Of a DNA stretch of 33,248 nucleotides, positions 4,221-9,298 are shown piece after piece. The stretch is from Myxococcota bacterium (GTDB taxonomy: Bacteria; Myxococcota_A; UBA796; CAJQPC01): contig JAKLKD010000042.1 of assembly GCA_023150845.1 (NCBI GenBank), forward strand, positions 1 to 33,248, read 5' to 3'. The notes under the pieces are model-generated. The model ran no database searches, was not told the DNA's origin, and worked only from the letters and a program-made list of their open reading frames with translations. The position numbers and the translations under genes are program-made. Each line of letters starts with the position of its first letter. Position 1 is the stretch's first letter.

Positions 4221-4871
4221 TCACCCCCCAAAGGTCGCCACCGTCCAGGGGTGCTCGTGGTGGTCGAGCGCGGCGGGGTCCACGGAGTGCTCGGGGCGCA
4301 GGCGGCTCAAGAGGCGCTGCATGGTGCGGTGGTCACGCTGGCTCATCACGGGGATCCCGGCGCGATCGAGGGTGGCCGCCATGACGCCCATGCCGCGCTG
4401 GAACCGCCGGGGGCTGTCGCTCCGGGCGCCCAAGGAGATCACCTGGGTGCCGCAGGCCGCGCTCATGTCGGTGAGCACGGCGAGCACGACCCCCTCACGC
4501 TGGGCGAGGGTGAGCGCCTCAGCCGCGGCGGCGATGATGCCCGCGGTGCCGTCTTGGCCGTCGTCAAACAAGAAGCGGGCGTGGCCGTCGAGCGCCGCGT
4601 GGCCGTCGCCGTCGTGGAGGTCGGGCATCCGCCGGGGCGTGCCAAACGCCATGTGTTCGGGGCAGACGGGCACCCAGCGCAGGTTGTCCAGCCCCCGCAG
4701 CAGGTCGAGCGCGCGCTCCATGCCGTAGCTGGTGCCGTCGATGCCGCAGCCCCAGGACATCATGCAGCCGCTCACGAGGATGGGCCAGGGGCGCTGGGCG
4801 GTCGGGTCGGGCAAAGTGTCGAGGGCGGCCCAGACGCGGCGGAGGTGGTCGGGGGTCGGCAGGCTGGGCAT
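4221..4871 (-). CDS. DUF523 / TudS-type [4Fe-4S] protein
   Basis: A 216-residue protein of the DUF523 family, whose characterised member TudS is a 2-thiouracil desulfurase using a [4Fe-4S] cluster held by three cysteines. Visible family features are ILVSGCMMSWGCGIDG (Cys36, Cys42), VPVCPEHMAFGTPR (Cys70 and the conserved Pro-Glu), and a later SAACG (Cys140) in the place of the family's SPSCG. The start at 4871 is supported by a GAGAGG ribosome-binding site. The frame stays open far upstream, but that part is the shadow of the neighbouring lipoprotein. It lies 8 bases after the lipoprotein stop and is probably co-transcribed with it. It converges on regA with an 8-base gap. Substrate specificity cannot be judged from sequence. 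Confidence 0.85.
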   Translation of the reverse strand: MPSLPTPDHLRRVWAALDTLPDPTAQRPWPILVSGCMMSWGCGIDGTSYGMERALDLLRGLDNLRWVPVCPEHMAFGTPRRMPDLHDGDGHAALDGHARFLFDDGQDGTAGIIAAAAEALTLAQREGVVLAVLTDMSAACGTQVISLGARSDSPRRFQRGMGVMAATLDRAGIPVMSQRDHRTMQRLLSRLRPEHSVDPAALDHHEHPWTVATFGG

Positions 4872-4879
4872 CGGGCCTC

Positions 4880-5476
4880 TCAGCGTTGGTAGAGCTGGGT
4901 GATCACCGTGCCGTCGCCGCTGAGCGCGGTGATGACGAGGGCGCCGTACCCCTTGGCGTCGTCCGGGGCGGGCACGCAGCCCTTGTGCCCGCCGCCCAGG
5001 GTGACGCCGGGGGCGCTCGCGGTGATCGGCGGGCGCAGCGGCGTCTCGGCGCCCGGGGCGAAGAGCTCGATCTGGGCGGAGACGGTCCCGGTGATGACCA
5101 CCGCCGCGGCGTAACACCCGCCGAGCTCCATCTTCGCGGGCAGGCGGAGCGTCGCGCCGGTGGTGAAGGTGGCGCCCGAGGCGTGGCCGAGGCGGCGCAG
5201 GAAGATCTCGCCTTGCTGTGCGAGCGCCTCGACGGCGGGCATCTGGGCGCTCATCTCCTCGACGCTGAAGGGCAGGGCTGTGCCCTCGGGCTTGGCGTCG
5301 CCTAAGGCCGCGAGCTCACCGCTCGGCCCGGCGGGGTTCCCGGCGCTGGGGTCTCCCGCCGCGCCGGGGTCGGTGAGGGCCGGGTCCCCCTCACCCTCGA
5401 CGGAGCTGACCTCGACGCAGCCCCCGAGGGTGAGGGCCGAGCCGAGCGTCAGGGCCGAGAGGAGCGAGGCGCGCAT
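4880..5476 (-). CDS. Lipoprotein of unknown function
   Basis: A 198-residue predicted lipoprotein. The signal peptide MRASLLSALTLGSALTLGGC places the lipidated cysteine at residue 20. It is followed by a Gly/Pro/Asp/Ser-rich linker (about 25-70) typical of surface-exposed lipoproteins, and a C-terminal domain of about 120 residues with three further cysteines and several strands (GATLRLPAKMELGGCYAAAVV, then HKGCVPAPDDAKGYGALVI). The KGCVPAP / GYGA stretch resembles a small disulfide-stabilised beta domain, but I do not recognise the family. There is no convincing ribosome-binding site. A promoter with a perfect -35 box ends exactly at the ATG, so a leaderless transcript is plausible. The TudS-like gene follows 8 bases later. 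Confidence 0.8.
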   Translation of the reverse strand: MRASLLSALTLGSALTLGGCVEVSSVEGEGDPALTDPGAAGDPSAGNPAGPSGELAALGDAKPEGTALPFSVEEMSAQMPAVEALAQQGEIFLRRLGHASGATFTTGATLRLPAKMELGGCYAAAVVITGTVSAQIELFAPGAETPLRPPITASAPGVTLGGGHKGCVPAPDDAKGYGALVITALSGDGTVITQLYQR

Positions 5477-5482
5477 AGGCGC

Positions 5483-5511
5483 ATCACACGCCAGCGCCGG
5501 GTTGATGTCAA
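5483..5511 (-). promoter_or_regulatory. Sigma-70-type promoter for the lipoprotein, apparently leaderless
   Basis: On the minus strand TTGACA (5511-5506, perfect -35), a 17-base spacer, and TGTGAT (5488-5483, 4 of 6 for -10). The expected start of transcription, about 7 bases further on, coincides with the A of the lipoprotein ATG at 5476. The -35 box overlaps the second stop codon of the interrupted gene upstream. No Shine-Dalgarno sequence is visible before 5476, which fits a leaderless mRNA. Confidence 0.5.
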
Positions 5512-5909
5512 GGAGGGTCGGCGGCCATCCCGACGGCGCAGCGCGCGCCGTAGCCGAGCACGGCGTTGTCGGCGACCGGCGAAGGGACGGGCCGCCAGCC
5601 GCGGGCGAGCCGGGCGTCGAGGAGCTCATCGAGGCTCGGCAGGTGATCCCAGACGGCGACCGCCGTCACCTTGCCCAGTCAGGTCGAGTCGTAGACGAGC
5701 CAGCGGTCCTCGCTGAGGCGCACCGGCACGTCGAGGCTGAACTCGTCCATGGCCCGGGGCTCCTCCACCAGGAGTCCCTCCCCGAACGCCCAGCGGGCGG
5801 CGCGCTCCAGGAGCGTGTGCCGCGCGATCATGCCCTCGATGACGAGGCGCTCCGTGGCGCTCAGGCCGACGTGATCGTAGATGTGGATGGGCGGCGGGGA
5901 GAGGTTCAT
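5508..5909 (-). CDS. Unknown small protein with in-frame TGA: possible selenoprotein or nonsense-interrupted gene
   Basis: The ATG at 5909 opens 76 codons (MNLSPPPIHIYDHVGLS...) ending at a TGA at 5681-5679. The same frame then continues for 56 more codons (LGKVTAVAVWDHLPSLDELL...) to a second TGA at 5510-5508. The part after the first TGA looks fully coding: about 51 of its 56 codons end in G or C, its residue composition is normal, and it contains the regular pattern WDHLPSLDELLDARLARGW. Read through, the product is 133 residues with position 77 either selenocysteine, a mutated Trp/Cys codon, or a sequencing error; a Cys is present at 124. A hairpin with a GGUC loop follows the TGA at SECIS-like distance. 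General reassignment of TGA is excluded, because most genes here end in TGA. The family is not recognised. The conventional reading is 5679-5909. Confidence 0.55.
5641..5671 (-). promoter_or_regulatory. SECIS-like hairpin just after the in-frame TGA
   Basis: On the minus strand, AGGUGA (5671-5666) pairs with UCACCU (5646-5641), and CGGC with GCCG, closing a GGUC tetraloop at 5661-5658. The 3' side has a 7-base bulge (UCUGGGA). Alternatively GACGGC pairs with GCCGUC as one 6-bp upper stem. Seventeen bases separate the TGA from the loop. From memory, the Escherichia coli fdhF SECIS has 18 bases and the same GGUC loop sequence. The hairpin could also arise by chance in GC-rich coding sequence. 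Confidence 0.35.
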
Positions 5910-5922
5910 AGACTCAGCGTAG

Positions 5923-5936
5923 CGAGGCTCACCTCG
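5923..5936. repeat. Short inverted repeat in a divergent intergenic region
   Basis: CGAGG-CTCA-CCTCG, 5-base arms with a 4-base centre, in the 79-base gap between the interrupted gene (-) and the DUF6756-like gene (+). It may be an operator shared by both. No clear promoter boxes were found beside it. Confidence 0.25.
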
Positions 5937-5988
5937 ACAGATCCAGCCCCGGCGACGATGTAAGGGTGATGACAGGAGGGCGAGACCG

Positions 5989-8368: not shown

Positions 8369-9298
8369 ATGCCTGCGGACGACGAGGAATCCTGGGTCAT
8401 CCGCCTCTTGGCTCCCCCTGCGGCCGCCCTGCCGCCTGAGGTTCGGGTCGGGATCGGCGACGACGCGGCGGTCTTGGCCGATGGTCGGGTGCTCACCGTC
8501 GACACCATGGTCGAAGGGGTGCATTGGGACGCGCGCTCCGCCCCGGCGGATGTCGGCGCCAAGCTCGCCTTGGTGAACGCCTCGGACGTCGCGGCCTGCG
8601 GCGCCGTGCCGACCCTCGCGCTCCTGTCGATGTCTCTGCCGAACCCCGTGGATCGCGCCTGGGTAGAGGGCTTCGCCGAGGGGCTCCGGGAGGGCCTCGC
8701 CGCCTGCGGCGCCGCGCTCATCGGCGGCGACACCACCCGGAGCGCCGGGGGCGTCGTCGTGAGCCTCACCATGCTCGGCCAGCTCCAGGCCGCGCCGCTC
8801 CTGCGCCAGAACGCCGAGGTCGGCGACGACCTCTGGGTGAGCGGCACCTTAGGCGACGCCAGCTTGGGCTTCGCCACCTCGGCCCCCGAGGGCCTCCGCG
8901 CCTTACGCCGCCCCACGCCTCCTCTGGCCCTCGGCCCGGCCTTGGCCGCCCGGGGGCTCTCGCGGGCGGCGATGGACCTCTCCGACGGACTCGCCACGGA
9001 CCTCCCCCGGCTCTGCGCCGCGGCGGGGGTCGGCGCTGAGGTCTGGCCTGAGGCCCTCCCCGCGTCAGACGAGCTGCGCGCCTCCGGCGCCGACCCGATC
9101 CCTCACCAGGTCGGCTTCGGCGACGACTACCAGCTCGTGTTCACCGCGCTACCCGCGCGTCACGACGACCTCCTCGCGCTCGGCGCCGACCTCGGTCTGC
9201 GCCTCAGCAAGATCGGCCGCGTGACCCAAGGCCCAGAGGTGACCCTCCGCGGTCACGCCTGGCCTCGGAGCTGGCAGCACTTCCCTGGACCTCAATGA
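8369..9298 (+). CDS. thiL: Thiamine-monophosphate kinase
   Basis: A 309-residue ThiL, which phosphorylates thiamine monophosphate to thiamine diphosphate, the last step of coenzyme B1 synthesis, in the cytoplasm. Family motifs are visible in order: GIGDDAAVL (residues about 29-37, ATP/Mg binding), TVDTMVEGVHW (about 49-59), KLALVNASDVAACGA, LIGGDTTRS, VSGTLGDA, MDLSDGLATDLPRL and GFGDDYQLVFT. The length is normal (E. coli 325). No thiamine riboswitch (THI box) is recognisable in the 54 bases upstream. Its stop overlaps the ATG of the following transporter (ATGA at 9295-9298), which couples a vitamin kinase to two CNNM/CorC-type proteins. ThiL needs magnesium, so a link to magnesium homeostasis is possible but is inference. 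Confidence 0.95.
   Translation: MPADDEESWVIRLLAPPAAALPPEVRVGIGDDAAVLADGRVLTVDTMVEGVHWDARSAPADVGAKLALVNASDVAACGAVPTLALLSMSLPNPVDRAWVEGFAEGLREGLAACGAALIGGDTTRSAGGVVVSLTMLGQLQAAPLLRQNAEVGDDLWVSGTLGDASLGFATSAPEGLRALRRPTPPLALGPALAARGLSRAAMDLSDGLATDLPRLCAAAGVGAEVWPEALPASDELRASGADPIPHQVGFGDDYQLVFTALPARHDDLLALGADLGLRLSKIGRVTQGPEVTLRGHAWPRSWQHFPGPQ

Follow-up and report, generated by a model that had tools for sequence, protein, structure and literature searches.

The type case of selenocysteine (Sec) insertion by SelB and a bacterial SECIS element (bSECIS) is fdhF of Escherichia coli, in which a hairpin lies directly downstream of an in-frame UGA. According to the published bSECIS model, the hairpin has a stem of 4–16 bp and a loop of 3–9 nt with G in the first two positions, is situated 16–37 nt from the UGA and has an MFE of ≤ −7.5 kcal/mol (PMC13188914). 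Among bacterial selenoproteins, GrdA (glycine reductase selenoprotein A) is the only one said to lack Cys homologues (deep-Sep paper, PMC12013277). Here we describe a gene in a 33 248-nucleotide stretch of DNA from a Myxococcota bacterium (the window) that shares with fdhF both the in-frame UGA and the hairpin directly downstream of it. As in SelB/bSECIS selenoproteins generally, the apical loop contains G and is located at 16–37 nt, and the genome encodes SelA, SelB and SelD. The product differs from the known proteins of this type in the motif around the Sec, which is T-U-[L/N]-[G/A] and not UxxC or CxxU. An initial annotation of the window had suggested that position 77 is Sec in an unrecognised family. 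This suggestion is supported by the homologues, the hairpin, the Cys-bearing relatives and the SelA, SelB and SelD encoded in the genome and, judged from sequence comparison, the gene can with high confidence be counted as a true selenoprotein gene whose family is unrecognised.

Results

The selenoprotein gene (positions 5508–5909, minus strand) starts with an ATG at 5909 and ends with a TGA at 5510–5508. It encodes 133 residues, comprising 76 codons, an in-frame TGA at codon 77 (5679–5681, minus strand), which is read as Sec in the context T-U-L-G, and 56 further codons; homologues align across the TGA. Third codon positions have a GC content (GC3) of 97% in the 76 codons that precede the internal TGA and of 91% in the 56 that follow it. 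The layout and the GC3 of about 91% behind the TGA had been described in the initial annotation and were confirmed on the minus strand. The gene is present as a single copy in its own assembly. An open frame of 267 codons (5160–5963, plus strand) runs antisense to it and has counterparts at four other loci; this frame is likely an artefact of high-GC3 coding on the opposite strand.

A scan of genome contigs yielded 13 related loci, each with a TGA at the same codon. In a profile search, 32 of 379 Myxococcota genomes were strongly matched, again each with TGA77, and 3 of 392 Planctomycetota genomes carried a TGA-bearing member, two of which were already known from the earlier scan. These two phyla were sampled evenly, while other phyla were covered by the scan for close relatives only. 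Family members include one from a Gemmatimonadetes metagenome-assembled genome (L005) and one on the complete chromosome of Limnoglobus roseus (L003), and at the protein level members are about 32–75% identical to the window product. After removal of duplicates, TGA was found at codon 77 in all 43 distinct members from at least three phyla, and Trp, Cys or any other sense codon at this position in none of them. Residue 77 of the homologues had been named beforehand as the site to check, and the outcome was 100% TGA without any Trp. One further family copy (L110, genome G480) has lost the TGA: 4 nt are deleted at the Sec site, which leaves the two halves in different frames, and the copy has probably either decayed or been misassembled. 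No relatives were found in a viral structure library, in plasmids or in viral contigs.

The GGUC-loop hairpin noted past the TGA was indeed present, fits the published model and covaries. It has the sequence GACGGC-GGUC-GCCGUC (5652–5667, minus strand; loop 5661–5658), starts 11 nt after TGA77 and, with a 4-nt loop situated 17 nt after the TGA, a 6-bp stem and −9.6 kcal/mol, lies within the constraints for bSECIS elements. The folding energy of the window sequence taken singly was unremarkable (z = −0.3 to −1.4) and was therefore kept out of the evidence for the hairpin; an Rfam search of the window returned no element. Among 32 distinct sequences of a first group of members, all 192 cells of the six pairs are standard pairs, and changes on both sides occur in four of the six. 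Cells changed on both sides numbered 15, which none of 500 shuffles reached, compared with a mean of 2.4 after shuffling, and the signal was lost when the pairing partner was slid by 1–3 columns. RNAalifold, run unguided, returned exactly this hairpin. Conservation and covariation of the hairpin are thus far beyond chance.

Several of the compensatory pairs alter the encoded residues, a pattern that constraint on the RNA instead of the protein would produce: GAUGGC/GCCAUC in L061 exchanges T for M and V for I, GAAGGC/GCCUUC in L064 exchanges T for K and V for F, and CGCGGC/GCCGCG in L060 replaces both T and V by A. Silent sites within the hairpin are frozen (GCG 32/32, GTC 32/32, GCC 30/32). 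Outside the hairpin, conserved residues on either side use synonymous codons freely, with four to five codons in use for the conserved Pro and Arg downstream. The loop letters are GGTC at 43 of the 45 sites listed. A second group of nine sequences (L007, L008, L011, L014, L054, L058, L062, L063 and L065), characterized by the motif [N/D]-x-V-S-V-W, has a hairpin that is related but shorter, with GGUC at the same position. Here the loop is GGUCUCC or GGUCU and the 3′ arm is displaced by a few nucleotides. No covariation was detected among these nine sequences, which was counted against the Sec reading.

The initial annotation had named the sel genes as a further check, and selA, selB and selD were found in the genome, while selC was not found in the draft. 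SelB, SelA and SelD scored 311, 487 and 374 bits respectively. The SelD of this genome is itself a selenoprotein (CAGU) with an in-frame TGA and a hairpin of the form GGCCCGGA-GGU-UCUGGGCC, whose loop lies 20 nt past the TGA; the host organism must therefore insert Sec. Rfam and pattern searches of the draft (G000; 95.7% complete, 444 contigs) did not reveal a tRNA-Sec gene, and the candidates obtained were only Leu, Ser and other tRNAs. Likewise, tRNA-Sec was not found in the congeneric draft G003, although G003 encodes SelA and a selenoprotein gene of the family. Both absences are likely due to gaps in the assemblies or to a selC that has diverged. Among the gene-bearing genomes tested, 10 of 11 contained tRNA-Sec(TCA), and SelA was encoded in 34 of 36, being absent from the drafts G148 and G298. 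The missing selC of G000 and G003 and the missing SelA of these two drafts were counted against the Sec reading. SelA was also encoded in 30 of 36 sampled genomes that lack the selenoprotein gene; its presence is therefore a matter of consistency, not of association. Within the window, an AIR-synthase-type (AIRS) protein encoded at 8369–9295 (plus strand) weakly matches the SelD model; it is probably a thiamine-monophosphate kinase and not SelD.

In the profile search, the TGA-bearing members were separated by a clean gap from distant stop-free proteins of about 145–165 aa. These proteins, a Myxococcota family (L071–L079 and L082; motif QGEFHHDVV...STNCNGGVKEV), are homologous to the selenoprotein over 82 columns, and their invariant Cys (STNCNGG) aligns with Sec77 (hhalign probability 97.8, E = 7.6 × 10−13). 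A mixture of Cys and Sec at position 77, which had been put forward in advance as support for recoding, is thus provided by a distant homologous family. This family contains TNCNGG in place of TTULG, lacks the TGA and possesses a conserved C-terminal part of its own, FDPCELL..DARSELRPEHRRRQRGGGW. Its invariant motifs are QGEFHHD, TNCNGG, F.PC and RQ.GGGW, and it has no match in Pfam or NCBIfam. A second distant Cys form (L111) is encoded in a Planctomycetota genome. Searches of 771 genomes sampled from two phyla did not turn up a close Cys form at the level of orthologues. In this respect the window family resembles GrdA (PF04723); it differs from GrdA in that a distant Cys family exists, and Pfam reports no sequence relation between the two.

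Residues D55, E56, T76, U77, V84, P91, L97, R100, G104, W105 and G119 are invariant in the selenoprotein family, and D60, D74, G79 and W87 are nearly so. A structure predicted from 42 sequences (pLDDT 91.8, pTM 0.85) describes the window product as a compact α+β protein, in which Sec77 would be positioned in a tight turn between strands 69–76 and 80–87. Fold searches of the PDB with both models gave nothing significant, the best Foldseek E-value being 0.14. With VIA-align, the first model reached a best Z of 5.5, with 4dm5 (OsmE; rmsd 3.4, 87 aligned) and 7ui9 (rmsd 4.3, 64 aligned) among the matches, and the better model a best Z of 4.9 with 7ui9 (rmsd 3.8, 60 aligned). Weak matches to NTF2-like and RelE-like folds were treated as common arrangements, and the protein may still have a known fold, the thioredoxin fold included.

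Neither Pfam nor NCBIfam gave a credible match to any of 42 members, and none was obtained among PDB sequences; the best chance matches (E = 0.008 and 0.013) were to unrelated families and involved one or two members. The family is not included in the 119 selenoprotein families catalogued in a 2026 review or in the 2025 deep-Sep list (PMC12013277). The catalogued families were tested by HMM where Pfam or NCBIfam has one, and those of Haft and Tolstoy (2025) were covered as listed in the 2026 review and in NCBIfam. The text of the 2026 selenoproteome review does not name Myxococcota, Planctomycetota or Gemmatimonadetes, and the main text of the 2016 selenoprotein survey does not mention Myxobacteria or Planctomycetes. 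The window family is hence a new selenoprotein family, absent from the catalogues searched.

Discussion

Four findings underlie the reading of UGA77 as Sec: the UGA is conserved, the hairpin is conserved and covaries, a distant family has Cys at the aligned position, and SelA, SelB and SelD are encoded in the genome. Since the TGA has been kept in at least 43 copies of three phyla together with a conserved hairpin, it almost certainly encodes Sec. During translation, SelB loaded with Sec-tRNA(Sec) would dock on the hairpin just past the UGA; UGA77 would then be decoded as Sec and the ribosome would proceed to codon 133.

A conserved hairpin directly 3′ of a stop codon could also stimulate read-through. 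In programmed read-through, a near-cognate tRNA, for instance that for Trp, would decode the UGA under the influence of the hairpin and a short and a long form of the protein would be made; the 100% conservation of the UGA would agree with this. Nevertheless, we consider it very unlikely: the distant homologues contain Cys at the site and not Trp or random residues, nearly all bearers possess the Sec machinery, loop, stem and spacing of the hairpin match the bSECIS model, and a similar GGU-loop hairpin is found in the SelD gene of the same genome. An arrangement of two genes, or of translational coupling, in which one ORF stops at the TGA and the next begins directly after it, would look the same, since in it too an open frame follows a stop. 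Yet the second half is always in frame with unchanged spacing, the stop-free relatives align through the site as a single continuous domain, and the predicted structure has a one-domain fold, the TGA residue being placed where the chain turns from one strand into its neighbour, which renders this arrangement highly improbable.

The initial annotation had also considered that a nonsense mutation or a sequencing error had turned TGG or TGC into TGA and left a pseudogene. Apart from that view of a single sequence, nothing speaks for such an event, and it is already refuted by the homologues: the TGA recurs in 43 distinct members, drawn from many assemblies, and the protein sequence beyond it is conserved. 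A sequencing error at TGA77 is excluded because independent genomes share the identical TGA, and the probability of a pseudogene is negligible.

Taking residue 77 as Sec, what the protein does can be proposed with less certainty. Up to three residues on either side of U77, no Cys is conserved, and there is no thioredoxin-like CxxU or UxxC motif. As a conserved second Cys is lacking, a mechanism with one selenol and an external thiol seems most likely. The invariant D55, E56 and T76 and the nearly invariant D60 point in the same direction, and we see roughly even chances that the selenoprotein is a one-selenol redox enzyme of the peroxidase or reductase type that is regenerated by an external thiol. 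More tentatively, the protein might have an unrecognised fold and perform a new reaction, with its Sec in effect fixed across at least three phyla and no Cys form among orthologues. If this were true, the family would be the second case, after GrdA, of Sec without Cys replacement in close relatives.

With this family, Myxococcota, Planctomycetota and Gemmatimonadetes gain a widespread, unannotated selenoprotein, and also a Cys family that is related to it and has no name. Standard annotation probably truncates or drops such genes, and methods of family finding that need close Cys homologues would tend to overlook this one. Moreover, the near-invariant hairpin with its natural compensatory variants represents a ready test set for the recognition of SECIS elements by SelB.

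The gene neighbourhood is not conserved beyond the same genus, and in the absence of a conserved operon partner the context therefore gives no hint of the substrate. A gene for a 2-thiouracil desulfurase (DUF523, PF04463), located at 4224–4850 on the minus strand of the window, is syntenic in the congeneric genome.
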